Shown here in pieces: positions 12,328 to 62,954 of a DNA stretch of 64,000 nucleotides. How positions within the stretch are numbered: position 1 is the stretch's first letter; each line of letters begins with the position of its first letter. The notes beneath the pieces are model-generated. The model did not search any database. It saw nothing but the letters and a program-made list of their open reading frames with translations, and had not been told where the DNA came from. A program made the position numbers and the translations under genes. The DNA is from a virus. The stretch spans positions 1 to 64,000 of IMG/VR virus record IMGVR_UViG_3300006104_000016. One strand, given 5' to 3'.

Positions 12328-13151
12328 TCATTGGTGCATTTACAAACTATAACTACAATCAATTAAAACCTTGGTGTGAATCAATTGATAAGTGTGGTTT
12401 TACAGGCGATAAAATTTTAGTTGTTGGTAAAACTGATAATAATACAATAATAGAATTAGAAAAAAGAAACTTTATATTAATCCCTATGCCGGATTTAGAT
12501 AATGTTCCTATTCATGTAGCAAGATTTTTAGCCATCTATGATTATCTACAAGCAACATGGACGAATTATAGATATGTCGTAACAACAGATGTCAAAGATG
12601 TTTACTTTCAAACAAACCCAATTGATTTTATTGAAAGTGGAAACCATAAACTTGTTATTGCTTCAGAAGGATTAAAATATGAAGATGAATCTTGGGGTGA
12701 TGAAAATCTCAAACAAGCATACGGTCCATATGTTTATGAATTATTCAAAGATAAAGAAATCTTTAATGTTGGAACATTTGGTGGTCAAGCAGAATATGTA
12801 AAAGATATGGTGTTTCATATTTTCACCAACGGAGTTAATAGACCTATTCCAATTGTCGACCAAGCAGTATTCAATGTGTTAATCAATACACAACCATTTA
12901 AAGATATAGTTTTTAAGACAGTCGATTGGGCTTGTGAAGCCGGCACAGTTGCTGACCCTTCAAAGATTAACAGATTTAGACCAAATTTATTATGTGATGA
13001 ACCAACAGTAAAAGATGGTATCGTGTATTACAAAGATAAACCATTTGCTATTGTTCATCAATATGATAGAGTTCCACAATGGAAAGAGTTTGTTCGTGTA
13101 ACATATGGACAAGATGATGAATCACAGATGTTTGTTTACAGGACTGCATAA
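12309..13151 (+). CDS. Putative glycosyltransferase (GT-A-like)
   Basis: 280 residues. RYVVTTDVKDVYFQ supplies a DxxD motif in the right place for a GT-A sugar-nucleotide-binding site, and a GTFGGQAEYV ... VDQAVFNVL segment resembles the later part of GT-A transferases that act on surface glycans. It overlaps the previous gene by 19 nt and the next by one base (TAATG). The donor sugar is unknown. Confidence 0.6.
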   Translation: MAQKDLIIGAFTNYNYNQLKPWCESIDKCGFTGDKILVVGKTDNNTIIELEKRNFILIPMPDLDNVPIHVARFLAIYDYLQATWTNYRYVVTTDVKDVYFQTNPIDFIESGNHKLVIASEGLKYEDESWGDENLKQAYGPYVYELFKDKEIFNVGTFGGQAEYVKDMVFHIFTNGVNRPIPIVDQAVFNVLINTQPFKDIVFKTVDWACEAGTVADPSKINRFRPNLLCDEPTVKDGIVYYKDKPFAIVHQYDRVPQWKEFVRVTYGQDDESQMFVYRTA

Positions 13152-13966
13152 TGAGTAAAATTTCAATAGTAACGGCTTTCTTTGATATTGGTCGTGGTGA
13201 ATGGACACCAGATAAAGGACTACCGCATTATTTGCATAGAACAACTGATACTTATCTAGAAAGATTTAGTAATCTATGCAAATTGGAAAATGACATTACT
13301 GTTTTCACGTCAGATGATTTAAAACATAAGGTAATTGATATATGTAAAGACCGTTTAGACACAACAAAAATTATTCCAATTGATGTGAATAGTCATTTTT
13401 CTAATATGAGAGATTTAATCATTAATGTTCAAAAAGATCCTGAATTCCAAAAGAAAGTTAATCCTCAACAAGTAAGAAATCCAGAATATTGGAATCCTGA
13501 TTATGTTCTTGTGACTAATCTGAAAGCATACTTTGCAAATATGGCTGTCAAATATAATTATACACAAAATGATATGGTTGCATGGATTGATTTTGGTTAT
13601 TGCCGTAGTGAAAATAATATTCCTGCTAGTAAAATATGGGAATATGATTTTGATGAAACAAAAATTCACCTATTCAATTACAAACCATATGATGATAAAC
13701 CAATAGACCACGCTGTTCTTAATAATGATGTTTATATCTTGGGTGCAAAAGTGGTGGCTCATAAAGATATGTGGCAAAAAATGTCCGACCTAATGACACA
13801 ATCTTTTGTTGATTTACAAGAAAAAGGTTTAGTTGATGATGACCAAGGTCTATGGCTACAGTCATATATAAATGAACCTAAGGTATTTGAATTGCATCAG
13901 ATTCCTGACCATCAGCTTGGTCACGATCCATTTGTATTGTTTAATAAATTTAATAATAAAGTTTAA
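13151..13966 (+). CDS. HtrL/YibB-WlaTC-family glycosyltransferase-like protein
   Basis: 271 residues. The N-terminus ISIVTAFFDIGRGEW is characteristic of the HtrL/YibB (WlaTC) family of lipopolysaccharide-cluster proteins. WIDFGYCR provides the conserved acidic/aromatic core motif, and a VYILGAKVVAHKDMW and DDQGLWLQSY region follows. Family members lie in LPS or lipooligosaccharide loci and are thought to be glycosyltransferases. Confidence 0.75.
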   Translation: MSKISIVTAFFDIGRGEWTPDKGLPHYLHRTTDTYLERFSNLCKLENDITVFTSDDLKHKVIDICKDRLDTTKIIPIDVNSHFSNMRDLIINVQKDPEFQKKVNPQQVRNPEYWNPDYVLVTNLKAYFANMAVKYNYTQNDMVAWIDFGYCRSENNIPASKIWEYDFDETKIHLFNYKPYDDKPIDHAVLNNDVYILGAKVVAHKDMWQKMSDLMTQSFVDLQEKGLVDDDQGLWLQSYINEPKVFELHQIPDHQLGHDPFVLFNKFNNKV

Positions 13967-13967
13967 T

Positions 13968-14591
13968 ATGATTGATAATTATGAATTGATAGAACCTGGA
14001 CATTGGTTTCAAAGTAAACCTACCGGTGAAATTATGAAGTATGATACTAACTATATGCAGTATTATACTAAAATGGACTTTAGTATGTCCAAATTACGTT
14101 TTGATTTACTTTCAAAATATGTTAAGTTTGATTCTATATGTGACTTTGGTTATGGTGATGGAGCATTTCTGAAGTATGCTCACATGAATGGTAAGAAATG
14201 TTTTGGACATGATATATCAAACTATCCTCTCCCAAATGATGTGGAGTTTGTGGCTAATGTCAAAGATGTTGAAGTTGATGTCATTACATTCTTTGATTCT
14301 ATTGAACATATTCCTTCTCCAAATATCCATGAGTTTCTCGGTTCAATTAACACAAAATATGTTATGATATCATTACCATGGATGCACGAAAGAATGGGTG
14401 CTGAATGGTTTAGAACATGGAAACACCGTAAAGAAAATGAACACTTCCATCATTTTGATTCTCATGGATTAATTACATTGATAGACAAAGCAGGATTCAT
14501 ACCAATGTATATCTGTAATCATGAGGATGAAATTCGTAAACCGGTTTCATACCTTCCAAACATTTTAACTATTATTGCAAAAAAGAGATAA
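13968..14591 (+). CDS. SAM-dependent methyltransferase (class I)
   Basis: 207 residues. Motif I is ICDFGYGDGAFLKYA, followed by an acidic motif (CFGHDIS) and the ITFFDSIEHIPSP motif of type-11/12 methyltransferases. The start at 13968 is used; the 32 preceding codons in frame overlap the previous gene and look unlike coding sequence. It probably methylates a sugar intermediate, judging from the cluster. The substrate is inferred only. Confidence 0.75.
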   Translation: MIDNYELIEPGHWFQSKPTGEIMKYDTNYMQYYTKMDFSMSKLRFDLLSKYVKFDSICDFGYGDGAFLKYAHMNGKKCFGHDISNYPLPNDVEFVANVKDVEVDVITFFDSIEHIPSPNIHEFLGSINTKYVMISLPWMHERMGAEWFRTWKHRKENEHFHHFDSHGLITLIDKAGFIPMYICNHEDEIRKPVSYLPNILTIIAKKR

Positions 14592-14593
14592 TC

Positions 14594-15337
14594 ATGCAAG
14601 TATATCTTAGCTCAACTGCCAACTTAGGTGATTTTTTAAATGGCTTTCCTGTTTTGTCTGGTCTTTATAAACAATATGGAAAATTTGACCTCATTGTTAA
14701 AAGAGATTTGAATAAATTTAAAGGTATCAAAGAGTTTTTGAATTATCAAGATATCTTTTCTTCAGTTGAGTTTGATAGTGATGTTTTTGTGTATGGCAGT
14801 ATCATTAACCTCAGTTCTTGGACTAGAGAAGAACAAAGTAATCCAAATCGACCAATTGAAACTTGTCGTTATGAAAACTGGTTGAGAGATAACTATCCTA
14901 ATTTAGAATTTGAAGTTGATGATGATGTAGAAATTAAAGTACCTGAATTAGATATTGAAATTGAAGATGCTTATTACTGTGGTGACCGATGGGATGCACC
15001 AGGCACAGATGATAGAAGAGCAACTGCTGTTCTATCTCATTTAAAAGATTTTAAATTCTTATCGTATGAAAATTCATTATTGACTAACGCATACATCATT
15101 AAAAATCTAAAGAAACCTTTCATTACTAATTTTACTGGTGTGGCCGTTCTTGCAGACTTATTAAATGTTTCCTCTTATGTTGTATGGAAAGCAGAAGATT
15201 GGAATCCTGAATTCAGAAAAGGTGATAATTGTTATTGGGATAATGGTAAAGATATTAATCAAGTATTTAAAAAACATTTCTATTTGGACCGTAAATCTAA
15301 ACTAGTGCATAATAATGAATTAGAAAGTTTATTGTGA
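14594..15337 (+). CDS. Glycan-cluster protein, possibly GT-B-like (GT9-like half)
   Basis: 247 residues. The N-terminus VYLSSTANLGDFLNGFPVLSGLYKQYG resembles the GD-L---P-L--L--- start of family 9 (heptosyltransferase-like) GT-B enzymes. A later FITNFTGVAVLADLLNV segment could be the second Rossmann domain. The following gene is also GT9-like. Only weak motif support; it could be an inactive paralogue. Confidence 0.5.
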   Translation: MQVYLSSTANLGDFLNGFPVLSGLYKQYGKFDLIVKRDLNKFKGIKEFLNYQDIFSSVEFDSDVFVYGSIINLSSWTREEQSNPNRPIETCRYENWLRDNYPNLEFEVDDDVEIKVPELDIEIEDAYYCGDRWDAPGTDDRRATAVLSHLKDFKFLSYENSLLTNAYIIKNLKKPFITNFTGVAVLADLLNVSSYVVWKAEDWNPEFRKGDNCYWDNGKDINQVFKKHFYLDRKSKLVHNNELESLL

Positions 15338-16044
15338 TTATCAATATTATTGAAGGAGTGTTTGGTGGTCCACTTCGTAATGGTGATTTAATTGGTGTTG
15401 CAAATGTTATAGCACATTTAAGAAAACAAACACCAGAAATTAAGTTTCATATGAAACAAGGCTCAGTTAATTCTGCCGATTATGTGCAGAAGTTTTACCA
15501 GTTTATGTTAAAGAATACAGATTATTTTTCTACTGAACCTGGTGATAAAGAATTAGCGTGGCGAAGAGTCAATCTTTGGGATTTCCGTGATATCATTGGT
15601 GACAATGTTATTATACCAAATAATGAACCTATGCAAAAGAAGATTGTAGTTTGTCCAATCTTTGATGCTCCATATAATGTATATCGTAATTGGCCTCGCC
15701 ACGTCTTTGAGGAAATTATTGCAAAGTATTCAACGAATGAATATAAGGATTATGAAAAGGTAATTTGTGTGCATGACCATTTTGCCAAAGCCTGTGAGTT
15801 TGAAGGCTGGAGATACTCTACCAATTTTGACCAAAATTTATACCACATTATGACTGCCGAAACATTCATTGGTGGTGACACAGGTACTAGCCATTTTGCT
15901 TGGTCGCTTGACAGAGCACCAGCAAATCTGTTATACTATAATTCTGGTCGGGGTTTAATGCATTGTTTACCATTCTATCTTTTAGAAGGCAAAGGTAAAA
16001 TAGTTAAGTATTGGCTAGATTTAGAAGGAACAACATGGCAGTAA
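15334..16044 (+). CDS. Heptosyltransferase-like (GT9) glycosyltransferase
   Basis: 236 residues with a GTG start that overlaps the previous stop (GTGA). The C-terminal half carries KIVVCPIFDAPYNVYRNWP and FIGGDTGTSHFAWSL, matching the GGDTG--H-A motif of GT9 enzymes. At 236 residues it is shorter than typical GT9 (about 330-350), so the N-terminal domain is compact or reduced. It would add a sugar to a surface glycan or lipid-linked acceptor. Confidence 0.65.
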   Translation: MIINIIEGVFGGPLRNGDLIGVANVIAHLRKQTPEIKFHMKQGSVNSADYVQKFYQFMLKNTDYFSTEPGDKELAWRRVNLWDFRDIIGDNVIIPNNEPMQKKIVVCPIFDAPYNVYRNWPRHVFEEIIAKYSTNEYKDYEKVICVHDHFAKACEFEGWRYSTNFDQNLYHIMTAETFIGGDTGTSHFAWSLDRAPANLLYYNSGRGLMHCLPFYLLEGKGKIVKYWLDLEGTTWQ

Positions 16045-17414
16045 AGTTAGTTATATTTGACCTTGATGGTGTTTTAATGGACAGTAGAGAGCTACATTAT
16101 GAAGCTCTCAATCGTGCTATACATACAGTAACCGATTCATACAACTATATTATTACCCGTGAAGAACATTTATCAAAATATGACGGACTAAACACTACAA
16201 AAAAATTACAGATGCTTACTCAAGAAAAAGGTTTGCATATTGATTGGTATGATGAAATTTGGAAAGAAAAACAAAAACAAACATTTGATTTAATTCATAC
16301 AGCACCAAAGAATCCTGATATTCTTAAAATAATGCATAATCTGAATTCTAAAGGATGGAAGATTGCAGTAGCGTCCAACAGTATTCGTGAAACAGTAAAG
16401 ACATCTTTATTATGTATGGATATTTTAAATTATGTTGATTATTATGTAAGCAACGAAGATGTGTTTAATCCAAAACCATTTCCTGAAATGTATTGGAAAT
16501 GTATGACAATGATGAAAGCTCTACCTAAAGATACTATCATTGTGGAAGATTCACATATTGGCCGTGAAGGCGCATTTAACTCTGGTGCACATTTGTATCC
16601 AGTAAAAGATGCTTATGATTTGAATGTGGAAGATTTTTTAAGCTATATTGAAGAATTTGAAGATAGTGGTCGTATAAAATCCATACCTTGGAGAAATAAG
16701 AAGATGAATGTATTGATTCCTATGGCAGGTGCCGGTAGTAGATTTGCTTCAGCAGGTTATACTTTCCCTAAACCATTGATTGAAGTCAAAGGTAAACCAA
16801 TGATTCAAGTTGTAGTGGATAATCTAAATGTAGATGCACATTTTATTTTTATTTGCCAAAAAGAACATTACGAGAAATATAATTTACAATCAGTTTTAAA
16901 TTTGATTGCGCCCGGTTGTGATATTATACAAGTTGATGGTTTGACCGAAGGCGCTGCATGTACCACGTTACTAGCTAAAGAATTAATTAATAGTGACGAA
17001 CCTCTATTGATGGCAAACTCTGACCAGTTTGTTGAATGGAATTCAAATGAATGTTTATATGCCTTTACTGCTGATTCTATCGATGGAGGCATTATTACTT
17101 TTGAAGCCACTCATCCTAAATGGTCTTATGCTAAGTTAGGTGAAGATGGTTTTGTATCTGAAGTTGCAGAGAAGAAACCTATTTCTAATATGGCAACAGT
17201 TGGTATCTATTATTGGAAAAAAGGTTCTGACTATGTTAAGTATGCAGAACAGATGATTGAAAAGAATATTCGCACTAATAATGAATTTTATGTTTGTCCT
17301 GTATTCAATGAAGCTATTGGTGATGGCAAAAAGATTCGTGTTAAAAATATTAAGAAAATGTGGGGTATTGGTACTCCAGAAGATTTAAATTACTTTTTGG
17401 AGCATTACAAATGA
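16035..17414 (+). CDS. Fused HAD phosphatase and sugar-nucleotidyltransferase
   Basis: 459 residues in two domains. Residues ~1-215 are a HAD hydrolase (motif I FDLDGVLMDS; VASNS for motif II; NPKPFPEMY and IIVEDSHIG for motifs III/IV). Residues ~224-459 are a nucleotidyltransferase (NVLIPMAGAGSRF ... FPKPLIEVKGKPMI; acidic pair in MANSDQFVEW). Together they could remove a sugar phosphate and activate a sugar to NDP-sugar. The start at 16035 has AGAAGGA upstream. An internal ATG near 16704 follows GGAG, so a separate nucleotidyltransferase might also be made. Confidence 0.8.
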   Translation: MAVKLVIFDLDGVLMDSRELHYEALNRAIHTVTDSYNYIITREEHLSKYDGLNTTKKLQMLTQEKGLHIDWYDEIWKEKQKQTFDLIHTAPKNPDILKIMHNLNSKGWKIAVASNSIRETVKTSLLCMDILNYVDYYVSNEDVFNPKPFPEMYWKCMTMMKALPKDTIIVEDSHIGREGAFNSGAHLYPVKDAYDLNVEDFLSYIEEFEDSGRIKSIPWRNKKMNVLIPMAGAGSRFASAGYTFPKPLIEVKGKPMIQVVVDNLNVDAHFIFICQKEHYEKYNLQSVLNLIAPGCDIIQVDGLTEGAACTTLLAKELINSDEPLLMANSDQFVEWNSNECLYAFTADSIDGGIITFEATHPKWSYAKLGEDGFVSEVAEKKPISNMATVGIYYWKKGSDYVKYAEQMIEKNIRTNNEFYVCPVFNEAIGDGKKIRVKNIKKMWGIGTPEDLNYFLEHYK

Positions 17415-18124
17415 AAACAGCGGTAATGATTGTTGGAAATTATAGAACTTGGAACGAAACAAAGCCAAGTTTTCTAAAACAATTTGGAGATATTGATACA
17501 TTTATTTGTTCATACGATTTACGATATGGATATCATCCTAGAGGATGGGGTGTGACTGATACACAAGATGAACTTATTACCGAACAGACATGGATTGAAG
17601 GATTATCTGACGTAAATGTTAAATTGGCAAACATTGAACAATTTTCTCAAGTAGACGAAATAATTAAGAATGAACTGCGAGAAATTAAATTGAACATACC
17701 AGAAAATGCTTATCAGTCGTATGGTCAATATCGTAAGTTTAAAATTGCAACAGAAATGGTTCAACATTACGAGAACCAAAACAATTTTAAGTATGATATT
17801 TTAGTCCGCACTCGATTTGATTTGGTGTATCAAGACGAACCTATTATATTAGATATTCAAGAAAATGAAATGGGTTATCATCACGGTACTAGCCCAGCTG
17901 ATGCTTTACCTGGTGACCAATTCTTTTTCACTTCAAGAGATAACATGATTAAGATGTCCGATTTTATGTTTAATGAGTTTTATAATCCTATCTACGAAGA
18001 TAGTCATCTATGTCCTCCACATGGCATATTACAAAACGCACTTAAACATAATAATATAACCAAATTGGTCCGTAATTCAATTAAACATCTATTAAGAAAG
18101 AATGGAACAGAACTAGTGCTATGA
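17411..18124 (+). CDS. Putative glycosyltransferase of the surface-glycan cluster
   Basis: 237 residues starting MKTAVMIVGNYRTWNETKPSF, chosen because the longer in-frame reading lies inside the previous gene. ILVRTRFDLVY resembles the RxRxD motif in small families of capsule- and LPS-associated transferases, and GDQFFFTSRDNM a later conserved patch. It overlaps both neighbours by four bases. Confidence 0.55.
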   Translation: MKTAVMIVGNYRTWNETKPSFLKQFGDIDTFICSYDLRYGYHPRGWGVTDTQDELITEQTWIEGLSDVNVKLANIEQFSQVDEIIKNELREIKLNIPENAYQSYGQYRKFKIATEMVQHYENQNNFKYDILVRTRFDLVYQDEPIILDIQENEMGYHHGTSPADALPGDQFFFTSRDNMIKMSDFMFNEFYNPIYEDSHLCPPHGILQNALKHNNITKLVRNSIKHLLRKNGTELVL

Positions 18125-18822
18125 CAAATCTATACAACGACAATTCCGATATCCAAAAAAATCAAAATATGTATGACAGTTACAATAACTTTATGTTTAG
18201 TAATGATAGAGTTGTGTTTAATAAGTTATACAGTAAAATGTATTTCTATGAAATGACAAAACATCTACCTGGCGATATTGTTGAGTGTGGAGTTTTCAAA
18301 GGTTCAGGAATCTTGGCATGGTTAAAAATATTGGCCATGAACGAACCTAATAGTATCAAGAAAGTAATGGGTTATGATTTTTTTGATCCAAGTTTTGTTG
18401 ATGATATGAAAACTGGTGTAGATAAAGATACAATGAAGCAAGTTTTTACAAGAGATAAAAATTTAATTGTAGATGATGTTTCGTATGAAGGAATTCAAAA
18501 TAAAATTATTAATGCTGGTTTTGATTCATCAAAGTTTGAGTTGATTAAAGGTGATATCATTGAAACCTCACAAAATACAGTAGAAGAAAAACCAGGTTTA
18601 AGAATCAGTATATTGTATTTGGATATGGACCTAGATAAACCAACATATGCAGCACTCAAAACATTTTGGAATAATATTGTAACTGGCGGAGTAATTGTAT
18701 TTGATGAATATGCTTATCATAGTTGGAGTGAATCGAATGGTGCAGATGATTTTATTAAAGAAATGGGTCTAACATTACATACAACCGGTATTAAAGCGCC
18801 AACCGCTTATATTATAAAATGA
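18121..18822 (+). CDS. TylF-like O-methyltransferase
   Basis: 233 residues. VECGVFKGSGILAWL, then LYLDMDLDKPTYAAL and GGVIVFDEYAYHSW, is the pattern of the TylF/MycF (macrocin O-methyltransferase) family, with acidic residues that bind Mg2+. These enzymes methylate sugar hydroxyls, which suits the cluster. Confidence 0.75.
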   Translation: MTNLYNDNSDIQKNQNMYDSYNNFMFSNDRVVFNKLYSKMYFYEMTKHLPGDIVECGVFKGSGILAWLKILAMNEPNSIKKVMGYDFFDPSFVDDMKTGVDKDTMKQVFTRDKNLIVDDVSYEGIQNKIINAGFDSSKFELIKGDIIETSQNTVEEKPGLRISILYLDMDLDKPTYAALKTFWNNIVTGGVIVFDEYAYHSWSESNGADDFIKEMGLTLHTTGIKAPTAYIIK

Positions 18823-19289
18823 AATATATTGCACATCGTGGTCTTTTTGATGGTCCAGATAAAGATAAAGAAAATAGTCCTACTCAAATCAATCAAGCTT
18901 TAATTAAAGGATTTGATGTTGAAGTTGATGTTTGGTTTGTAGATAATCAATGGTATCTTGGCCATGATAGTCCAACATACAAAGTTGAATATAGTTTTTT
19001 AGAAGATTCTAGATTTTGGATTCACGCAAAAAATTTAGATGCTCTATATGTATTGGGTGCCGATTCAAAATTAAATTTCTTTTGGCATCAAGAAGATAAC
19101 TTCACTTTAACTTCTAAAGGTTATATTTGGACTTATCCAGATAAACCATTAACCAAGAATAGTATTTGTGTTTTACCTGAATGGAACAATGATATCTCTA
19201 AAGGATATAATCCTGATTGTTATGGAATTTGTTCGGATTTTGTATCTATTATTACCAAAACTCAATTTTCCGATATCTATATATCATAG
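18819..19289 (+). CDS. Short glycerophosphodiester phosphodiesterase-like protein
   Basis: 156 residues. The GDPD catalytic signature is present: AHRG near the N-terminus, ENSPTQ, EVDVW (acid pair), LGHDSP and IHAKN. It is shorter than typical GDPD (about 240), with the second half of the barrel reduced. In this context it may act on glycerophosphate-linked glycans or lipids. It is the last gene of the glycan cluster. Confidence 0.7.
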   Translation: MKYIAHRGLFDGPDKDKENSPTQINQALIKGFDVEVDVWFVDNQWYLGHDSPTYKVEYSFLEDSRFWIHAKNLDALYVLGADSKLNFFWHQEDNFTLTSKGYIWTYPDKPLTKNSICVLPEWNNDISKGYNPDCYGICSDFVSIITKTQFSDIYIS

Positions 19290-19330: not shown

Positions 19331-19338
19331 TATAAATA
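19331..19338 (+). promoter_or_regulatory. T4 late-type promoter upstream of the capsid-interior gene run
   Basis: TATAAATA in TTGTATAAATAGGTAATC, in the 96-nt gap before the gene at 19386. It matches the eight-base core of T4 late promoters. Downstream genes look like virion components, fitting late expression. Confidence 0.55.
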
Positions 19339-19385
19339 GGTAATCGTTACAGGCAACCATAGTGTGTTGCAGTCAGAAAGATTTA

Positions 19386-20567
19386 ATGATAACATTCAAG
19401 ACGTTTTTAAAAGAAGAATACGAGCCATCACCAGAAGGCAAACTTAAGCACATTCATCATGCTGAAGACAGGCCTTTATTACATGGTGGCAAAGGTTTTA
19501 CTCACGCCTTCAATGCATTAAATCAAGCGCACGAACACATAAAATCTGGCGGTCACAGTTCAGCATTAACAATGAAATATGATGGTTCGCCTGCTGTTGT
19601 TTTTGGTCATCATCCAGAAACAGGTAAATTCTTTGTAGCATCCAAATCAGCATTCAATAAAAATCCAAAGTTGAATTATACCCATAAGGATATAGAAAAG
19701 AATCACGGCCATGCGCCTGGTCTTATGGACAAACTCCATGACGCTTTAAATCATCTCAAAAAAGTATCACCTAAAACAGGCGTTTATCAAGGTGATATGA
19801 TGTTTGGTTCAACTGATAAAAAAGAAACTAAAAACGGTGTTTCTTTCACTCCTAATACCATTACATATACAGGAAAAGGTGAAGAAGCAAATAAGATTAG
19901 AAAATCTAAAATGGGTGTTATTGTTCACACACAATATCATGGTGACAATATTGCTTCAATGAAAGCAGACCCACATCCAGATTTACATAACTTCGCACAA
20001 CATCCAGATGTATGGCACAAATCAGCCAATCACGATACTAAACAAGTCCATTATTCAGAAAATGACCAAAAAGAATTTAATTCTCATATGGCCGCAGCAA
20101 AAGCAATACATGATGAACATAAATCAACAATGTATAAAGCTACACAACCACATCAAGGAGATGCTGGGCATTTAGCAACATATATAAATCATACAGTCAG
20201 AACAGGTGAAACTCCATCTGCTGAAGGACTTAAAAAGCATATAGCTAGTAAGTATAAAAAAGAGATTGATAAGTTAAAAACACCAGCAGCACAATCTCGT
20301 AAAGCAAGTGAAGCTAATAAGCATGCAGACCATATAGATAACAATAAAGAACACTATAATAATTTGTTGAAAATGCATCATCATTTACAGCAAGCAAAAG
20401 ATATATTAGTTAATAATTTAAACCAACATGAGGGCGGTTTAGAACACCATATTGGTAAAAAGAGAACAAATCCAGAAGGGTTTGTTATCAATCATGCTGG
20501 TGAACCAACAAAATTAGTTAATAGAGCAGAATTTAGTAAAGCCAACCTTTTAAAAGTGAGAAAATGA
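19386..20567 (+). CDS. Nucleotidyltransferase/ligase-fold protein with capsid-targeting-like N-terminus
   Basis: 393 residues. It opens MITFKTFLKEE, which fits the T4 capsid-targeting pattern with a cleavable L-K-E at 8-10. LTMKYDGSPAVVFG carries the KxDG motif I of the DNA/RNA ligase superfamily (Lys near residue 64), TGVYQGDMMF may be motif III, NPEGFVI motif IV and KLV motif V. The family may be DUF6267 of T4-like phages. The C-terminal half is His/Lys-rich helical. The start at 19386 follows AGAAAG; an earlier GTG lacks this. Enzyme activity is inferred from motifs only. Confidence 0.65.
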   Translation: MITFKTFLKEEYEPSPEGKLKHIHHAEDRPLLHGGKGFTHAFNALNQAHEHIKSGGHSSALTMKYDGSPAVVFGHHPETGKFFVASKSAFNKNPKLNYTHKDIEKNHGHAPGLMDKLHDALNHLKKVSPKTGVYQGDMMFGSTDKKETKNGVSFTPNTITYTGKGEEANKIRKSKMGVIVHTQYHGDNIASMKADPHPDLHNFAQHPDVWHKSANHDTKQVHYSENDQKEFNSHMAAAKAIHDEHKSTMYKATQPHQGDAGHLATYINHTVRTGETPSAEGLKKHIASKYKKEIDKLKTPAAQSRKASEANKHADHIDNNKEHYNNLLKMHHHLQQAKDILVNNLNQHEGGLEHHIGKKRTNPEGFVINHAGEPTKLVNRAEFSKANLLKVRK

Positions 20568-22480
20568 AGACCTTTTTAGAATTAGTAGAAGAAAAACAAT
20601 CGACACATAAACCTGTGGTGGTAGGTTTTGGTCGTATGAATCCTCCTACATCAGGTCATCTAAAACTTATTGATAAGGTTAGAGAAATAGCAGATAAAAA
20701 CAAAGCTAAACATAAAGTTATTGTTACTCATACACAAGATTCAAAAAGAAATCCATTATCAGGCCAACAAAAACTTAAACATTTAAAAAGATATTCACCT
20801 GGTACTAATTTTGAAACATCTTCAAAAGACCATCCAACTATATTACATCATGCTGCTAAATTGCATGCTCAAGGACACGACCATTTGATTATGGTTGCTG
20901 GTTCTGATAGAGTTAAAGAATATCAGGACTTATTACACAAATACAATGGTAAAGAAGGACAACACGGTTACTTCAATTTCAAAAAGATAGAAGTTAAGTC
21001 AGCAGGCCATCGTGATCCAGATTCGGAAGGTGCAGAAGGTATGTCTGGTACAAAGATGAGAGAACACGCTAAGAACAATGATTTCTCATCATTTAGACAA
21101 GGTGTTCCATCTCATGTTCCTGACCATCACGCTAGAGAATTAATGAAAGATGTTCGTAGAGGCATGGGTCTTAATGAACAATTCGATAGAGGTATGTTTA
21201 AAGCAATATTTGTGACTGGTGGTCCAGGTTCAGGTAAAGATATTGTTATTCGTGAAGCTATTGCTGAATCAAAGATTACTGAATTAAACTTTACACAAGT
21301 GGTAGATATTCTTAACGATAAACAAAAACTTGCTATGAAATCAATGAATCCTAGAAATGAAGCAGTCAGAACAAGAGGTCCATTAATTATCAACGGTCCA
21401 GCTGATGATTTAGAAAAAATCAATCATATCAAAGAAGAATTAGAAGAACTTGGTTACGAAACCATGATGATTTTTGTCAATACAACTAACGAAGTATCTA
21501 AAGAAAGAAATACTTTACTATCCAGAATGATGGTTGAATCTATTAGACAGGATAAGTGGAGTAAATCTCAAGAAAATACTAAATATTTCATTGAGGCATT
21601 TAACAACTTTGTTGCCTTTGATAATACAGGTTATATTGATACAAAAGAAGAAGATATCAATGACATCTATCAATCAACAAAGATATTTTTAGATGCTAAG
21701 GCGATAAACGAAACAGTTGATGATTGGTATTTGAGAAACATTAACTTGAATGAAAAAGTTAATGAATTATTCAATGAAAAAGATGCCAAAGGTATTCAAC
21801 TTAAAACTGTAGGTAAATATAATGCTTTCTATAAAGCAAAAGGTCCTGCAGATATTAAAAGAGATAATCGCACAAGTAGATTTAGTGTTACAAGTGACAA
21901 TACACTAAAAGGTGACCAAATTAAAGGTAATGTATTACCTAGAAAAGACCCAAACGGTCAAGGTCATTCGGGTGGTTCTTGGTCTGGTGCTTATAATGAA
22001 GCAGCACCAACATTAACTTGGAATAAACCACCAAAAGAACCAAACTTTAATTATGACAATGATAAGAACAAGAAGTTAAAAAGAGGTAATAGTTCATTAA
22101 GTGCTGGTCGAGTGACTCAACCACCAGGCTTAGGAAGAACATACGATACAAGAGCAGGTGGTCAAGGTGCCGCAGCAGGTGCCGGACTTGGCGACCAAAC
22201 ATATAGCGAAGATAGAGAATATAGTAACGCAAGTCAGAACGGTACAGCAATGCTAGGTGCTAAATTAGAACCTAATCCATTAGCAGAAAAGAAACCGTTT
22301 AATAAATTTAGAAAAAGCATTAAAGAGTTTAATGGCTTTCAAAATGATGTAGAATCTGGTGTTGGTGGTGTCTTGGGCGGTTCAGACAATAAAGAACGTA
22401 TGGACAGTTATAAAGACCCTATTAGACATATACAAAATGACTATTCATTAAAGAAGAAGAAGAAAAATGCTAAAATTTAA
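20564..22480 (+). CDS. NMNAT-like cytidylyltransferase fused to P-loop kinase domain
   Basis: 638 residues. The N-terminal domain (about 17-200) has GRMNPPTSGH (HxGH-type nucleotidyltransferase motif, here TSGH at 29-32) and GMSGTKMREHA, equivalent to the ISxTxxR motif. The second domain has Walker A GGPGSGKD (about 219-226) and NTLLSRMMVESIRQDKW. The C-terminal ~200 residues are Gly/Asn-rich and low complexity. The fusion recalls NadR (NMN adenylyltransferase plus ribosylnicotinamide kinase). The start MKTFLELVEE fits the capsid-targeting pattern. It overlaps the previous gene by four bases. Confidence 0.75.
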   Translation: MKTFLELVEEKQSTHKPVVVGFGRMNPPTSGHLKLIDKVREIADKNKAKHKVIVTHTQDSKRNPLSGQQKLKHLKRYSPGTNFETSSKDHPTILHHAAKLHAQGHDHLIMVAGSDRVKEYQDLLHKYNGKEGQHGYFNFKKIEVKSAGHRDPDSEGAEGMSGTKMREHAKNNDFSSFRQGVPSHVPDHHARELMKDVRRGMGLNEQFDRGMFKAIFVTGGPGSGKDIVIREAIAESKITELNFTQVVDILNDKQKLAMKSMNPRNEAVRTRGPLIINGPADDLEKINHIKEELEELGYETMMIFVNTTNEVSKERNTLLSRMMVESIRQDKWSKSQENTKYFIEAFNNFVAFDNTGYIDTKEEDINDIYQSTKIFLDAKAINETVDDWYLRNINLNEKVNELFNEKDAKGIQLKTVGKYNAFYKAKGPADIKRDNRTSRFSVTSDNTLKGDQIKGNVLPRKDPNGQGHSGGSWSGAYNEAAPTLTWNKPPKEPNFNYDNDKNKKLKRGNSSLSAGRVTQPPGLGRTYDTRAGGQGAAAGAGLGDQTYSEDREYSNASQNGTAMLGAKLEPNPLAEKKPFNKFRKSIKEFNGFQNDVESGVGGVLGGSDNKERMDSYKDPIRHIQNDYSLKKKKKNAKI

Positions 22481-23162
22481 ACAATATCTTGACGAAGTTA
22501 AGAAACCTACAGGTGCCTTAAAAAAGGCTTGTTGGAAAGGTTATACAGCAATTGGTACTAAACAAAAGAATGGTAGAACAGTACCAAACTGTGTACCTGA
22601 AGAAGTAGAACAAGTAAATGAAATAGACAAAGAAACAGTTAAGAGATATTTGGATAAAGTTACAACAGACCAATTAAAAAAGACTGGCTATCAACCTGAT
22701 ATGTATGGTAAATTAGTACCAAAAAGACAAAAAGGTGTTGATAACGCATTTAAGAGATTACAAGTTAAGCCTACAACAGAAGAACTTGAAGAATTGTTTG
22801 ATATTTTAGAAGAAGTAGTTGATGGCATCGCAGAAGAAAGTAATATTGATCCAGATATTCTTTGGGAAAATCTTGAAGATGTTTCAGATGAAGAACTATA
22901 CGAAACTGCCGCTTGGCGCAGAAAAGAAGGTAAAAGTCCTACAGGTGGTTTAAATGCAAAAGGAATTGCTTCTTATCGTAGAGAGAATCCAGGATCTAAA
23001 TTAAAAAAGGCCGTTACAGGCAAAGTAAAACCAGGAAGTAAAGCCGCTAAACGCAGAAAATCATTCTGTGCTAGAATGGGTGGAATGCCTGGACCAATGA
23101 AAAAACCAGATGGTAAACCAACAAGAAAAGCACTCGCATTACGCAAGTGGAAATGCAGATAA
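22467..23162 (+). CDS. Probable virion protein with Cys/Arg-rich C-terminus
   Basis: 231 residues beginning MLKFKQYLDE (capsid-targeting-like). An early segment KKACWKGYTAIGTKQKNGR-VPNC is common in T4-like phage virion proteins. The C-terminal third (AAWRRKEGKSPTGGLNAKGIASYRR ... KSFCARMGGMPG ... LRKWKC) resembles a DUF6321-type domain. Very basic at the C-terminus, so it may contact DNA inside the head. Overlaps the previous gene by 14 nt. Confidence 0.6.
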   Translation: MLKFKQYLDEVKKPTGALKKACWKGYTAIGTKQKNGRTVPNCVPEEVEQVNEIDKETVKRYLDKVTTDQLKKTGYQPDMYGKLVPKRQKGVDNAFKRLQVKPTTEELEELFDILEEVVDGIAEESNIDPDILWENLEDVSDEELYETAAWRRKEGKSPTGGLNAKGIASYRRENPGSKLKKAVTGKVKPGSKAAKRRKSFCARMGGMPGPMKKPDGKPTRKALALRKWKCR

Positions 23163-23175
23163 AGGAGAAATAAAA

Positions 23176-25197
23176 ATGTTTCAAAAAGATAAAGTAACCC
23201 AATCAATGATTGATGCCGTTAACCAAGTATTAGGAGAGGCTAAAGTTGAACCAGCTAAACCTGATCCAGAGGCTATTGCTCGTAAAAAGAAACTAGACGC
23301 ATTACGAGATAAACAAGATGCTGAAAAGGCAGAAAAAGGACATTCTCCATCTGCTACCCGTAAGGTTGCTGGTCATGCTTACGGTGGTGCTAAACAAAAA
23401 GATGATGAAATGGATGAAGAAGTTAAATTAGATGAAGCTGAAATGGATGAATCTGGCTTACGCATGGCTGCACATGCTGCTCACAAAGCAGGCCAATCAC
23501 ATTTTGAATTCAAAGGCAAAAAATATCCAGTTAAGGTTACAGAAGATGGTAAAGTTGATTGTGACTATGCTAAAGTTAAAGATATTGCTAGAAAAGAAGT
23601 TAAGGGTCATGAAAAATCAATGCATAAAGAAGAATTATCTTTTGCTAAGAAATTAAAATCAATGTTAGAAGCAAAAGGTCCTTTAGCAGGTGCTCCTGAC
23701 GTATTCACCGATAACAATCTTGGTGAAGAAGAAATGTCTGATGCTCAAATGAAGAAAAGAGAAAAAATTGTAATGAGCATGAAAGATAAAACTGCTCAGT
23801 TTAAAGCAAAGTATGGTAAAAATTGGAAAAATGTAATGTATGCTACTGCTACTAAGCAAGCGATGAAAGAAGATGCAGACATTACTAAACCTAATACAGA
23901 AAATAAAGGTGAAACAAAAGAAAGACAAAAGATTACTACTAATCCAGGTCCTGTAGATATCAAAACAGATGACAAATTAGGTAAACCTACTCCACAAGCT
24001 TATTTCACATCTAAAGAATTAGAGCAAGTAACACAAGAAGAAGTTATGGGTGAATTAAAACATTTACGCCATAAAGAAAAAGGAGAGCATAAAAAGAGAG
24101 TGTCTGATTTTAAAAAACATCACGACAAACATCAAGTAGATGATGGATGTGACCATTATCAAGAAGATATTGAATTTGATTTAATCGATGAAGGTAAAGA
24201 TGATGGTGATTATACTCATGTTGCTCACTACGAAGACAATGATGGTAACTGGATGGCTAAATTATTAATCGATGCTGAACATGACGGTCATGCTATTGAA
24301 ACAGCAAACAAAGCTATGGGTAAAGGTCCATTTGCTGGTTTAAGAGTTCGTAAGATTGAACGAGTAATGAAAGTTCATGACGGTAGAATGCAAGAAGAAG
24401 TAGAACAACTTGATGAGTTGGATCCAAAAACTTTAGCATCATATGCTAAGAAAGCCTCTCATGATGCTCGTATTAAACAAACAGTAGCTAGAGATTTTCT
24501 TGCTAAATCTAATACAGCTAGAAGTCCAAGAAAAAAAGAAACATGGTCTAGTCTTTCTAAAAAGTACCAAAGTGGTGCATGGAAAAGAGAAAAAGGCCAT
24601 GATTTAGCTATTGATAAGTTAGCTAAAGAAGATGTAGAATATATTGATGAAGGCAAGATGAAAGATATCTACACTTCAATGATGATGCATGCTGATAAAA
24701 AAGGTTATAAGAGCCATAAAGAATTTACACCAGCTGATTATACTGCTGTAGGTAAAGAACATGGTATTTCAGGTAAAGATTTAGCAGTAATTGCTGGTCA
24801 TAAAACAGCATCACAAGTTGCTAAAGAAGAAACTGAAGTTGAAATCAATGAAGGCAAAATGAAAGATATCTACACTTCAATGATGAACCATGCTGATAAA
24901 AAAGGATACAAAAGTCATAAAGAATTTACTTCAGCAGACTACAATGCAGTAGGCAAAGAACATGGCATTTCAGGTAAAGATTTAGCAGTTATTGCTGGTC
25001 ATAAAACAGCATCACAAGTTGCTAAAGAAGAAGCAGAAGGTTCATGGCAAAAAGAATCACCATGGAAAAAATCACCTGGTACTGTAACAGATAAGTCTGG
25101 TGCTAAACATACACCAATGTCTAGAGTTAAAGATATTGCTAAACAAGCACTAAAAAAAGTAAAACAAGAAACAATGATGGGTAAAATTTCTAACTAA
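23176..25197 (+). CDS. Large repetitive probable virion or core protein
   Basis: 673 residues, rich in Lys, Glu, Asp and His with short DEAEMDES-like acidic patches. The C-terminal third holds a tandem 61-residue duplication (each copy starts EGKMKDIYTSMM and ends TASQVAKEE). Several L-x-E/L-G-E sites could be cut by a prohead protease. The start at 23176 follows AAAGGAGAAA. It is flanked by probable virion genes. A scaffold or internal protein is likely; no enzyme motif was seen. Confidence 0.6.
   Translation: MFQKDKVTQSMIDAVNQVLGEAKVEPAKPDPEAIARKKKLDALRDKQDAEKAEKGHSPSATRKVAGHAYGGAKQKDDEMDEEVKLDEAEMDESGLRMAAHAAHKAGQSHFEFKGKKYPVKVTEDGKVDCDYAKVKDIARKEVKGHEKSMHKEELSFAKKLKSMLEAKGPLAGAPDVFTDNNLGEEEMSDAQMKKREKIVMSMKDKTAQFKAKYGKNWKNVMYATATKQAMKEDADITKPNTENKGETKERQKITTNPGPVDIKTDDKLGKPTPQAYFTSKELEQVTQEEVMGELKHLRHKEKGEHKKRVSDFKKHHDKHQVDDGCDHYQEDIEFDLIDEGKDDGDYTHVAHYEDNDGNWMAKLLIDAEHDGHAIETANKAMGKGPFAGLRVRKIERVMKVHDGRMQEEVEQLDELDPKTLASYAKKASHDARIKQTVARDFLAKSNTARSPRKKETWSSLSKKYQSGAWKREKGHDLAIDKLAKEDVEYIDEGKMKDIYTSMMMHADKKGYKSHKEFTPADYTAVGKEHGISGKDLAVIAGHKTASQVAKEETEVEINEGKMKDIYTSMMNHADKKGYKSHKEFTSADYNAVGKEHGISGKDLAVIAGHKTASQVAKEEAEGSWQKESPWKKSPGTVTDKSGAKHTPMSRVKDIAKQALKKVKQETMMGKISN
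24649..24831 (+). repeat. Tandem 183-nt coding repeat, copy 1
   Basis: First copy of a 61-codon unit inside the gene at 23176; the second lies 201 nt further on. The two are nearly identical at protein level (for example KKGYKSHKEFT and GISGKDLAVIAGHKTASQ). Confidence 0.85.
24850..25032 (+). repeat. Tandem 183-nt coding repeat, copy 2
   Basis: Second copy of the 61-codon unit. It is separated from copy 1 by an 18-nt linker. Differences are mostly synonymous third-position changes, so the duplication is not very recent or is maintained at protein level. Confidence 0.85.
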
Positions 25198-25207
25198 AGA
25201 GAACAAC

Positions 25208-26407
25208 ATGGCTAAAACACTAAAAGATGTAATTAAAAAGAATATTGCACCAGCAAGCAGATTTGGAAAAAATCCATCTGATCCTTGGTCAGTAAAATCT
25301 AATATCAATGAAACAGCTATGCTAGATAAATTCTTATCATCTAGAGGAATTAATCCTAAATTTGCTGCCGTTGATACAAAAGATGCTTATGCTAAATCTA
25401 ATGAATTTAAGAAATGGTTAAGAGACCATCAATCAGGCACTCAAATGGAAGATATGACAACTAGCCGATATGCTGGTGATGCTCGTTCTAAAGATGTTCA
25501 TTCACCTACAGCACAAAGAGAAAAAGATTTAGAAAAGGTTAGTAAACATCACGAAATTAAACCTGTTCATACAAATTCATCAAAGGTTGTTACTATGAAA
25601 AAACCAACAAGTGAAGCAGCTCATCCTGATGAAAAGACCACAGATATGCTTCGTGGTCGTGTCAAAGGTGGTAAACCAAACGAGTTTAAGAGTTATAAGA
25701 TTAGAATTTCTAAAGAAGAAGTTGAATACACTACAGAAATAGCAGCTTCAGTAATGGCTTCAAAATTAAATAAAGACGCAGATGAAAATCGCACTAGCAT
25801 TGATGCTGAAGAATTGACTACAGACACTTTAGCTGGTAGAGTTAAAGGCGGTAAAGCTAATGCTGTATTATCATATAAAATTAGATTATCTCATGCTAAA
25901 GGTGAAGATGCTGATACTTTAGATGTAACAAAAGAACCAGAAGATTCTAGTTTTCCACACAGAGAACAGTTTGAAATACAAGAAGACTTAATAGGTGATA
26001 CAAAATCAGCAACAATTTCACCAGCAGATGGAGCAAACGGTGGCGCAGAATCTGTTACAAAAAAATTATCTAGAAAAGCTCAATTAATTTTAGGTGTAGT
26101 TAAAAAAAGAGCTATGAAAGAAGATATGCATGATTGGGAAAAAGAAGATAAATCTGTAGCATCTTATGGTAAAAAACCTAAATTTGAAAAGCAAGAAGAT
26201 AAGAATGCAGAAAATAATAATGGTGAAAAGAAATCTGAAGCTGCAGGCACATTATCTGGCGGTACTACACTAACAGGTGAGAAAAGAGATACAGTAGAAC
26301 TTGATCCATTGATGAGAAGTCGTCCTAATCAACCAGATCCAACAAAGAAGAAAGACGACAAAAAAGATGACAAGAAAGACAAGCCTAAAGAAGCACCAAG
26401 AGGCTAG
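25208..26407 (+). CDS. Low-complexity probable virion protein
   Basis: 399 residues, rich in Lys, Asp, Glu and Ser. An internal degenerate repeat is visible (TTDMLRGRVKGGKPNEFKSYKIRIS and TTDTLAGRVKGGKANAVLSYKIRLS). The C-terminus is an almost pure Lys/Asp tail (KKKDDKKDDKKDK). It lies between the repetitive protein and the probable decoration protein. Disordered packing or scaffolding role is inferred; no family was recognised. Confidence 0.6.
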   Translation: MAKTLKDVIKKNIAPASRFGKNPSDPWSVKSNINETAMLDKFLSSRGINPKFAAVDTKDAYAKSNEFKKWLRDHQSGTQMEDMTTSRYAGDARSKDVHSPTAQREKDLEKVSKHHEIKPVHTNSSKVVTMKKPTSEAAHPDEKTTDMLRGRVKGGKPNEFKSYKIRISKEEVEYTTEIAASVMASKLNKDADENRTSIDAEELTTDTLAGRVKGGKANAVLSYKIRLSHAKGEDADTLDVTKEPEDSSFPHREQFEIQEDLIGDTKSATISPADGANGGAESVTKKLSRKAQLILGVVKKRAMKEDMHDWEKEDKSVASYGKKPKFEKQEDKNAENNNGEKKSEAAGTLSGGTTLTGEKRDTVELDPLMRSRPNQPDPTKKKDDKKDDKKDKPKEAPRG

Positions 26408-26411
26408 ATTA

Positions 26412-26419
26412 GATAAATA
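26412..26419 (+). promoter_or_regulatory. T4 late-type promoter (GATAAATACTTA)
   Basis: GATAAATA within GATAAATACTTAAC, 38 nt before the ATG of the probable structural gene at 26458 and just after the previous stop. One base differs from the TATAAATA core. An AAAGGAGAAAAG ribosome-binding site follows. Confidence 0.5.
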
Positions 26420-26457
26420 CTTAACATAACTAACCCGAGGTTAAAAGGAGAAAAGAA

Positions 26458-27081
26458 ATGCCAACATGGGGAAATACCGATACTGGTAATCAAAAACCAA
26501 AGTTTGACTATTTACGTCAAACAAGAGAAGTTTTACAATTTATAGTTTCATCTGGTAATACAGCAGGAAATAACGTAATTAGAGTTAGTTACAACGATGG
26601 CGCACAAAACAATGTAGCCAATGCTGGTGTAACTTCAGGTCAATATGTTTATTTCATGGCAAACGGATTTGCACTACCTGGCGGCACAGCAGGTAATGGT
26701 TATCCAGGTTTCTTTGCATCAAATACAACAGTAGCATCAGTTAGTGGTAACACAATTACATTAACACAAAACTTATTCAATACAGTAAACGTAGGTTTTG
26801 GTGTTGAATTTGACAATGCTATCAATTATGGAACAACAGCAGGTGCAAATACTTATTTCCTAGATACTATTTTAGTTACAGCATCTCGCACAGCAAATGG
26901 TAATAACGCAATTGCAAACGTAGGTAATATGACTGCTGGTTGGGTTCATATTCAAAAGAAAGTGAACAGCGACGGTACAGTTCGTTACTTAAAAGAAACA
27001 TTAGTTGCTTTAGCGAATGCTACTGCTTCAAATACAAGTTCAGGTAACACAAGCTTTGGTTCTATTGTAACTGGTTTATAA
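26458..27081 (+). CDS. Probable abundant virion structural protein
   Basis: 207 residues beginning MPTWGNTDTGNQKPKFDYL. Rich in Asn, Gly, Thr and Ala with repeated beta-strand patterns (NTITLTQNLFNTVNVGF), typical of outer-surface or tail structural proteins. Similar proteins occur in T4-like aquatic phages to my recollection. It has its own late-type promoter and a strong ribosome-binding site, suggesting high expression. It ends in a TAATG overlap with the next gene. Confidence 0.6.
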   Translation: MPTWGNTDTGNQKPKFDYLRQTREVLQFIVSSGNTAGNNVIRVSYNDGAQNNVANAGVTSGQYVYFMANGFALPGGTAGNGYPGFFASNTTVASVSGNTITLTQNLFNTVNVGFGVEFDNAINYGTTAGANTYFLDTILVTASRTANGNNAIANVGNMTAGWVHIQKKVNSDGTVRYLKETLVALANATASNTSSGNTSFGSIVTGL

Positions 27082-27563
27082 TGATTAAGTTTCATGATTT
27101 CGTTGTTGAGGAATTAAATTTTCCTGTAATAACTCTTGATAAAGAGAAAGTAGACCTTGATAAGGAATCTACTCGCAACGAAATCAATAGAAACCTATCA
27201 TCTGAATTAGTTACTAATTTTATTAATCCTTATGCTGGCTGGTTAAAAGTTGGAAAAGTATTAACACTCTATAACATTACATTACCTAAGGTAATATTTA
27301 AAAATGATATAGAAGGCGAAGAAGTTGTTGCTATAACACAATTTGGTGCAGACCTTTCGGGTAAGGAATCTGCACCACAATTGCCTTATGAAGAAGAATA
27401 TTATTTGTATTATAGTTATGAAGTTGTTGAATCTGGTTTATATGAAGCTTATGCTGTTATTGTAAACGGTGATGAATTAGAAAATATGCTTGAAGCTGAT
27501 GACGAAGATGATGATGACATTGACGTTTTAGGACCTAAAAGCGAATTAGATTATAGAAAATAG
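27081..27563 (+). CDS. Virion-associated candidate with capsid-targeting-like start
   Basis: 160 residues. It starts MIKFHDFVVEE, again fitting M-x-x-F-x-x-(F/Y/L)-(L/V/I)-x-E. The C-terminus is strongly acidic (EADDEDDDDIDVLG). The middle has alternating beta-strand patterns. No further motif. Late expression and virion association are inferred from neighbours and the N-terminus. Confidence 0.6.
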   Translation: MIKFHDFVVEELNFPVITLDKEKVDLDKESTRNEINRNLSSELVTNFINPYAGWLKVGKVLTLYNITLPKVIFKNDIEGEEVVAITQFGADLSGKESAPQLPYEEEYYLYYSYEVVESGLYEAYAVIVNGDELENMLEADDEDDDDIDVLGPKSELDYRK

Positions 27564-27575
27564 TTAAATTATATT

Positions 27576-27962
27576 ATGATTGATAATTTGACAGAAGAAA
27601 ACTTTTTGATATATGCTATGAAGTGCTATAATGCACCTAATTACATTATGTCAGAATTTGAAGGAGATATTAAGAGAACAAAATATCTTAAACGATTATT
27701 TCGTAGATATAAAACCAATAAATCTCTTAAAGAACGATTAATTCTAAATCATATTATTTTGTTGAATAATGTTTTTGGTCCAAAAGTGACCGCAAGAATA
27801 TTATTCTACAAGATAGATGAACGAGATTATGATATATTGAAAACATTTTTATTGTATGTAAATATATTACCAGACTTAATAGAAGGTATTAATGGCAAAT
27901 CAATTAATACATCTGAAATACCTGTAGACATGACTGTTGCTGAAAAATTAAGGAATCTATGA
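27576..27962 (+). CDS. Conserved T4-like phage protein of unknown function
   Basis: 128 residues, helical, with hydrophobic helices (ERLILNHIILLNNVFGPKVTARILFYKI) that look like a small globular protein. It overlaps the next gene by four bases. Similar proteins occur beside late genes in aquatic T4-like phages; no function is known to me. Confidence 0.6.
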   Translation: MIDNLTEENFLIYAMKCYNAPNYIMSEFEGDIKRTKYLKRLFRRYKTNKSLKERLILNHIILLNNVFGPKVTARILFYKIDERDYDILKTFLLYVNILPDLIEGINGKSINTSEIPVDMTVAEKLRNL

Positions 27963-28150
27963 AATCATTTAAAGAATATATCAAAGAAATGGGTGCAGGT
28001 GCTGTAGGTAGTGCTGGTCCAACTAATGTAGTTGGCGGTGGTGCAATTGCAGGTACAGGCGGTAAAGGCGGAGAACCTGGCGTTGATTTAAGAAAAAGGA
28101 AAAGAAATACACATAATCCAGTTATGATGGGTATTGGTAGAAGGAAATAA
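27959..28150 (+). CDS. Small Gly-rich protein with capsid-targeting-like start
   Basis: 63 residues. It begins MKSFKEYIKE, the closest match of the window to the T4 peptide MKTYQEFIAE. The remainder is Gly/Ala/Val-rich, then a basic RKRKRN tail. If cleaved after residue 10, a small basic peptide of about 53 residues would remain in the head. Confidence 0.6.
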   Translation: MKSFKEYIKEMGAGAVGSAGPTNVVGGGAIAGTGGKGGEPGVDLRKRKRNTHNPVMMGIGRRK

Positions 28151-62933: not shown

Positions 62934-62954
62934 TATAAATAAAGATATAAGGTT

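Follow-up and report, generated by a model that had tools for sequence, protein, structure and literature searches.

Five neighbouring genes of a T4-like aquatic phage encode unrelated proteins that begin with the same kind of ten-residue sequence, which resembles the capsid-targeting sequence (CTS) of the T4 internal proteins. The phage, which is related to Kyanoviridae as judged from gene content, is represented by IMG/VR record IMGVR_UViG_3300006104_000016; the window referred to below is the first 64,000 nucleotides of this record. With a probability of roughly 0.87, we consider the five starts (the tags) to be T4-type CTSs on head cargo that would be made late in infection, cleaved after Glu10 and carried into the next cell with the DNA.

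Genes were predicted across the whole 71.4-kb record, giving 106 starts and 376 internal Met codons, and were scanned with the strict tag pattern M-x-x-[FY]-x-x-[FYL]-[LIV]-x-E. The pattern occurs at five of the 106 starts, which belong to exactly the five proteins named in the initial annotation of this DNA (Table 1), and at none of the internal Met codons; the pattern search over the rest of the record gave no further strict match. Shuffling the N-terminal residues within each start yielded a mean of 0.048 matches (maximum of 2 in 400 trials) versus the five observed. The five tagged genes fall inside nine consecutive predicted genes (P = 7e-5 under random placement). The observation is confirmed and lies far above chance. 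When applied to T4 as a positive control, the same scan returned ipII, ipIII and 61.1 and therefore detects known CTS proteins. Both ipII and ipIII start with MKTYQEFIAE, the peptide that the initial annotation had given for internal protein (IP) III. T4 gene 61.1 (18966–19130) starts with MKTFKEFIKE, a strict tag, and its product may thus be a T4 internal protein that has gone unrecognised. The first open reading frame (ORF) of the cluster would be eight residues longer if it began at an in-frame GTG at 19362, but the ATG at 19386 is favoured by conservation, by the leader and by the many relatives in which the ORF opens at the ATG.

Table 1. Features of the tagged gene cluster, in window coordinates.
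Feature	Position	Strand	Remarks
T4-type late promoter TATAAATA	19331–19338	+	55 bp before the DUF6267 ATG
Leader hairpin GCAAC-CATAGTGT-GTTGC, loop CAyAGnGT	19353–19370	+	Downstream of the late promoter and ahead of the first tagged gene
DUF6267 protein, putative ligase-like nucleotidyltransferase	19386–20567	+	Tag MITFKTFLKE (19386–19415); Pfam PF19782, E 9e-101
Predicted NMNAT/cytidylyltransferase and P-loop kinase-like protein, disordered C-terminus	20564–22480	+	Tag MKTFLELVEE (20564–20593)
DUF6321 protein, basic	22467–23162	+	Tag MLKFKQYLDE (22467–22496); PF19846, E 1e-22
Repetitive lysine-rich protein, start MFQKDKVTQSMIDAVNQVLGE	23176–25197	+	No ten-residue tag
Untagged protein	26458–27081	+	May be a counterpart, by gene position, of the cyanophage 'head/virion structural protein'
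Acidic 160-residue protein, no known family	27081–27563	+	Tag MIKFHDFVVE (27081–27110)
63-residue basic protein	27959–28150	+	Tag MKSFKEYIKE (27959–27988); phrog_3286

The tag is selectively conserved in relatives of the window proteins. Among 80 IMG/VR loci, the strict tag is present on 64 DUF6267 homologues, and the seven homologues that lack it are without exception partial ORFs or truncated matches, in which the start is unreadable. At positions 4, 7, 8 and 10, the DUF6267 relatives have column entropies of 0, 0.75, 0.28 and 0 bits, respectively, compared with 1.5–2.75 bits at positions 2, 3, 5, 6 and 9. T4 genetics assigns targeting to the first two of these low-entropy positions (4 and 7) and processing to the last two (8 and 10; PMC9026906). 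In an independent sample retrieved solely by the leader DNA pattern, 76 of 76 distinct DUF6267 starts are tagged. Met1, Lys2 and Phe4 are invariant among relatives of the NMNAT-like protein (20564), with Glu10 in at least 90%. The 27081 family keeps the strict tag in four of four members (including the window's own copy), the relatives being 36–50% identical, and relatives of the 27959 protein do so in eight of 18, with several of the others having Asp10 or a shifted form. Related DUF6321 ORFs bear tags of their own, such as MKSFKQYLEE and MKTFKQFINE. No motif was found in relatives of the untagged neighbours 25208, 26458, 27576 and the primase.

In cultured cyanophages, the cytidylyltransferase is strictly tagged in seven of the eight sampled (Syn9, P-SSM2, P-SSM4, S-RIM2, S-RIM14, S-MbCM6 and ACG-2014d) and has a relaxed tag in the eighth (ACG-2014f). 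The jumbo-phage homologues (RaK2 and GAP32) have no tag and begin at the enzyme domain itself. For DUF6267, C48C1 and DLP_6 have the tag, whereas the proteins of the cultured cyanophages MED4-213, S-PM2 and S-SZBM1 begin at the domain itself, without a tag; the tag is therefore gained or lost as a module. The expectation that homologues keep the ten-residue start holds in the window's clade and for the cyanophage cytidylyltransferase, and fails for DUF6267 of several cultured cyanophages.

The five tagged proteins represent five unrelated families. In the DUF6267 protein, Lys64, Asp66, Gly67, Glu364 and Gly365 are invariant in 48 sequences and Lys376 and Val378 are conserved in at least 90%, so that the KxDG motif I, the EG motif IV and a lysine-containing motif V (KxV) are all present. 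The invariant residues match the pattern of covalent nucleotidyltransferases. The structure model is confident, with a predicted local distance difference test score (pLDDT) of 88.9; residues 6–20 score below 50, which is consistent with a flexible leader. The best PDB matches to the model are DNA ligases, although these are weak (E 0.04, TM score 0.18). We infer that DUF6267 is an ATP-dependent ligase-like nucleotidyltransferase. Homology of DUF6267 to a tagged RNA-ligase-like protein from another contig (L297) was considered and is not supported. Sequence searches of the PDB with the DUF6267 and NMNAT profiles gave nothing credible. The 20564 protein is, according to profile and fold matches, NMNAT/cytidylyltransferase-like: it scores 25.7 bits against PF01467 (CTP_transf_like, with a TxGH-type motif; cut-off 21) and E 1.7e-61 against phrog_3041, and its fold matches NMNAT (1kku and 8aih), adenylate kinases, polynucleotide kinases and ATP sulfurylase. 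The 27081 protein gave no match in phage records. T4 61.1 was rejected as an orthologue of the 27959 protein; both are tagged and align weakly, but they belong to different PHROGs and the likeness is one of analogy only.

The first tagged gene is preceded by two conserved elements. TATAAATA is the T4 late promoter consensus and has two plus-strand copies in the window; the second, at 62934, lies ∼70 bases before an ATG and marks a further late-gene candidate. Of 49 relatives, 35 have NATAAATA at a distance of 48–68 bp upstream, compared with 2.3% of 150-bp background windows, and most relatives without it have CTAAATA at that place. Late expression of the operon is predicted from this conserved promoter. 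The leader hairpin is paired in 98.2% of cells in 35 relatives, with compensatory changes at four of five pairs and 37 double-changed cells compared with 12.1 after shuffling. No Rfam family scored above its gathering score with the hairpin, and its occurrence elsewhere in the record does not exceed the shuffled expectation. A 16-base hairpin pattern has 118 sites in the collection, 104 of which precede DUF6267 and 111 of which are accompanied by a late-promoter-like sequence; several of the other sites precede different proteins with CTS-like starts. This pattern locates the operon across viral contigs (leaders L012–L091 and L382–L500). One possibility is that the hairpin serves as a translational operator.

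Published virion proteomes contain tagged orthologues of the window enzyme. The cyanophage-core cytidylyltransferase T4-GC190 was detected in S-SM1 virions (PMC3037559). Within the genome of S-SM1, a single strict tag occurs, borne by a 387-residue homologue of the window NMNAT (E 7e-37), which on sequence grounds we take to be the T4-GC190 virion protein. Cytidylyltransferase/NMNAT was also detected in virions of S-SZBM1 (PMC9146016) and S-CREM2 (PMC10665884), and NMNAT in those of S-SCSM1 (PMC9602691). For S-CREM2, 51 of the 52 proteins in the published virion list could be matched to predicted genes. The strict tag is present on an S-adenosylmethionine (SAM) hydrolase, an APH-like kinase and the cytidylyltransferase, all three of which are virion-listed, versus none of the 123 other genes (Fisher p = 0.024); the relaxed tag is found on six listed and two unlisted proteins (p = 0.0085), and a Cas9-annotated nuclease has it at residues 17–25. 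The SAM hydrolase, this nuclease, a 78-residue protein and the APH-like kinase are adjacent on the minus strand of S-CREM2 (3837–13331 of L102); all were detected in virions, have strict or relaxed capsid-targeting-like starts and form a second tagged group. The untagged DUF6267 of S-SZBM1 is absent from the virion table of that phage. The initial annotation had proposed that the phage loads a set of proteins into its capsid; this is supported by the conservation of the tag together with the published virion mass spectrometry of tagged NMNAT orthologues (S-SM1, S-SZBM1 and S-CREM2).

The following sequence of events is proposed by analogy with T4. Late in infection, unrelated proteins that have only a ten-residue amphipathic leader in common would be made from the TATAAATA promoter. 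Tag residues 4 and 7 would bind the prohead scaffold core, and a gp21-type S77 protease guided by residues 8 and 10 would cut after Glu10; core binding and cleavage have been demonstrated for T4, the former with IPIII. The mature proteins (the ligase-like nucleotidyltransferase DUF6267, the NMNAT-like and P-loop kinase-like enzyme, the basic DUF6321 protein, the acidic protein and the small basic protein) would then stay in the head beside the DNA and enter the next cell along with it. Their likeliest use would be action in the first minutes in the new host, for example in NAD or nucleic acid repair against host defence, which is the weakest step of the scheme. Arriving early, the NMNAT and the ligase-like enzyme could replenish NAD or mend nucleic acids damaged by defence systems. 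Phage NAD reconstitution pathways exist (PMC12774641), and a link to this locus is speculation. Each of the 11 reference phages that were searched in full, among them T4, encodes a gp21-type S77 protease, as do five of eight long contigs, two of which are relatives with this cluster.

Several observations weigh against this scheme. The search for a gp21-like protease suggested in the initial annotation was positive in the phages listed above but found none in the window's own 71-kb record, which is a fragment. The strongly acidic 27081 protein (net charge −22) differs from the basic T4 internal proteins. Position 7 is Lys or Ile in several NMNAT tags. Among the S-SZBM1 proteins, two small ones with a strict tag (∼105 and ∼165 residues) have no length match in the 30-protein virion table of that phage, and the authors of the S-CREM2 study cautioned that virion enzymes could be co-purified (PMC10665884). 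Finally, a DNA-pattern scan of IMG/VR found 81 stretches with Asp at tag position 10, a residue that in T4 is compatible with targeting but prevents processing (PMC9026906). About half of the 80 such stretches that were re-read have Glu at position 9 or 11. Glu10 is therefore not exclusive, and the Asp10 scan was dropped as a clean specificity control.

Of the other explanations, the one that survives best is that the tag does package these proteins but that they act within the head, in DNA condensation, core assembly or head-size determination, with their enzyme folds serving a structural role. Four of the five window proteins are basic, with net charges between +8 and +17 (+13, +17, +16 and +8), basicity and partial contact with DNA are also described for the T4 internal proteins, and in some tagged proteins an enzyme domain cannot be recognised. 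We nevertheless regard a head role as unlikely, since the invariant residues of DUF6267 (Lys64, Asp66, Gly67, Glu364 and Gly365) are those expected of an active nucleotidyltransferase and since the tagged adenylate kinase, SAM lyase, ADP-ribosyltransferase and HD hydrolase described below would be better suited to the host cytoplasm. It is less probable still that the proteins are transient prohead assembly factors which are for the most part digested or expelled when the head matures, leaving little to be delivered. T4 gp22, gp67 and gp68 behave in this way (PMC9026906), and [LIV]-x-E sites are above average in the DUF6321 protein (3.9 per 100 residues, 1.5 expected) and the NMNAT protein (2.4, 1.1 expected); against this, finished virions contain cytidylyltransferase, SAM hydrolase and kinase homologues, and the only [LIV]-x-E site of the DUF6267 protein is that of the tag itself. 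Given this mixed result, internal sites were not used as proof of processing. Chance, or a generally Lys/Glu-rich amphipathic N-terminal composition without targeting function, is scarcely credible despite the short and degenerate motif, in view of the shuffled and internal-Met controls (0.048 versus five matches; 0 of 376), the two sites given by a scrambled DNA pattern of the same composition versus at least 120 for the tag pattern, and the selective conservation of the functional positions.

That tag pattern was a DNA version of one tag form, MK[ST]FK[EQ][FY]hxE, which matched at least 120 stretches in IMG/VR. Among the matches listed, 130 ORFs were read, 117 of them full-length, with a median of seven open codons upstream. 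The mature parts of these 117 ORFs form at least 56 families without mutual BLAST matches. Pfam domains found on tagged ORFs among the matches listed include adenylate kinase, S-AdoMet lyase, ART-PolyVal, HD_4, GNAT, RNA ligase, acid phosphatase, methyltransferase, a lytic transglycosylase fold, CTP transferase, DUF6267 and DUF6321. Since the tag is present on a T4-like cluster and recurs in wild phages on dozens of proteins that are unrelated to one another and in many cases are enzymes, these phages probably inject ready-made enzymes with their DNA. It is also rather probable, to a lesser degree than the assignment of the five starts, that in environmental T4-like phages one ten-residue label serves generally to load a large and exchangeable arsenal of injected enzymes and effectors from at least 56 families. 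Candidate injected effectors include tagged proteins that resemble an HD (SpoT-like) hydrolase (L212:279–845), an ADP-ribosyltransferase-like protein (L207:3736–4152), adenylate kinase (L255:3506–4081) and a lytic transglycosylase fold (L248:2397–2801). Runs of four side-by-side tagged genes starting with MKTFKQFI.E or MKTFKEY..E occur at L276:6502–9422 and L220:2357–3913, which suggests cargo islands.

The cluster lies between replication genes: DNA polymerase, UvsX and gp41 helicase are upstream of it, and gp61 primase and ribonucleotide reductase follow downstream. This gene order, enclosing DUF6267 and a cytidylyltransferase, recurs in S-PM2, HTVC008M, Melnitz-2, MED4-213 and S-SZBM1; a search for near-identical phage records gave none. 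Between the upstream replication genes and the operon (window 11611–19289) are glycosyltransferase-, HAD/nucleotidyltransferase- and methyltransferase-like genes. The untagged 26458 protein directly precedes DUF7207, as does its possible counterpart in S-PM2 and S-SZBM1, a likeness in gene position. Relatives of the lysine-rich 23176 protein have the conserved start F-x-K-x-K-[IV]-[ST]-Q-S-M-I-D-A-V-x-x-[VI]-[LI]; the start reads MFxKxK[IV][ST]QSMIDAVNxV[LI]xE, near-duplicate segments follow YIDE and INE, and the start is possibly a longer propeptide ending in h-x-E.

Phage-injected proteins are at work ahead of all phage gene expression, and they are hard to find because they have no common fold. 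A readable label, if real, would make them searchable across viral genomes by sequence alone, would provide a sorting mechanism for the virion NMNAT, SAM hydrolase and kinase that proteomics could not tell from contaminants, and would make the role of injected enzymes in the first minutes testable.

CTS-tagged internal proteins of T-even phages and NMNAT-like cyanophage virion proteins are both known, the latter having been reported in T4-like cyanophages since 2010 (PMC3037559, PMC9602691, PMC9146016, PMC10665884). A review suggested that the CTS may be a general route by which T4-like phages take up proteins (PMC9026906). T4 Alt is an enzyme of the prohead core that is processed by gp21, losing a seven-residue propeptide, and is ejected into the host (PMC9026906). 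The statement in the initial annotation that no such enzymes had been described as T4-like internal proteins was therefore too broad with regard to virion NMNAT-like proteins and injected Alt. It stands for the link between tag and enzyme: in the PubMed Central papers that were searched (subscription journals being outside this scope), no paper joining the tag to these virion enzymes was found, nor any report of the tag on DUF6267, DUF6321, SAM lyase or the other families.

The window proteins resemble T4 IPI, IPII and IPIII in the ten-residue tag with Phe/Tyr at position 4, an aromatic residue or Leu at 7, an aliphatic residue at 8 and Glu at 10 (PMC3012670, PMC9026906), in the sharing of this tag by otherwise unrelated proteins, in the late promoter and in the gp21-type protease (here in relatives). 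Packaging and cleavage have been shown for the T4 proteins and are predicted for those of the window phage. Unlike the small T-even internal proteins, the putative cargo of the window comprises enzymes and DUF proteins and is clustered between the helicase and primase genes. As proposed here, it would share with T4 Alt, an ADP-ribosyltransferase, the use of an enzyme as prohead-loaded, injected cargo, but the tags are ten residues long and the enzyme classes differ. The closest counterpart of the window NMNAT is the homologous T4-GC190 cytidylyltransferase/NMNAT (phrog_3041), which occupies the same neighbourhood in several phages, is tagged in the eight sampled cyanophages as well as in S-SM1, S-SZBM1 and S-CREM2, and has been detected in virions. 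The T4-GC190 reports do not name the tag; unlike in the proteins that they describe, the NMNAT domain of the window shares one polypeptide with a P-loop kinase-like domain and is accompanied by tagged DUF6267, DUF6321 and two more tagged neighbours.

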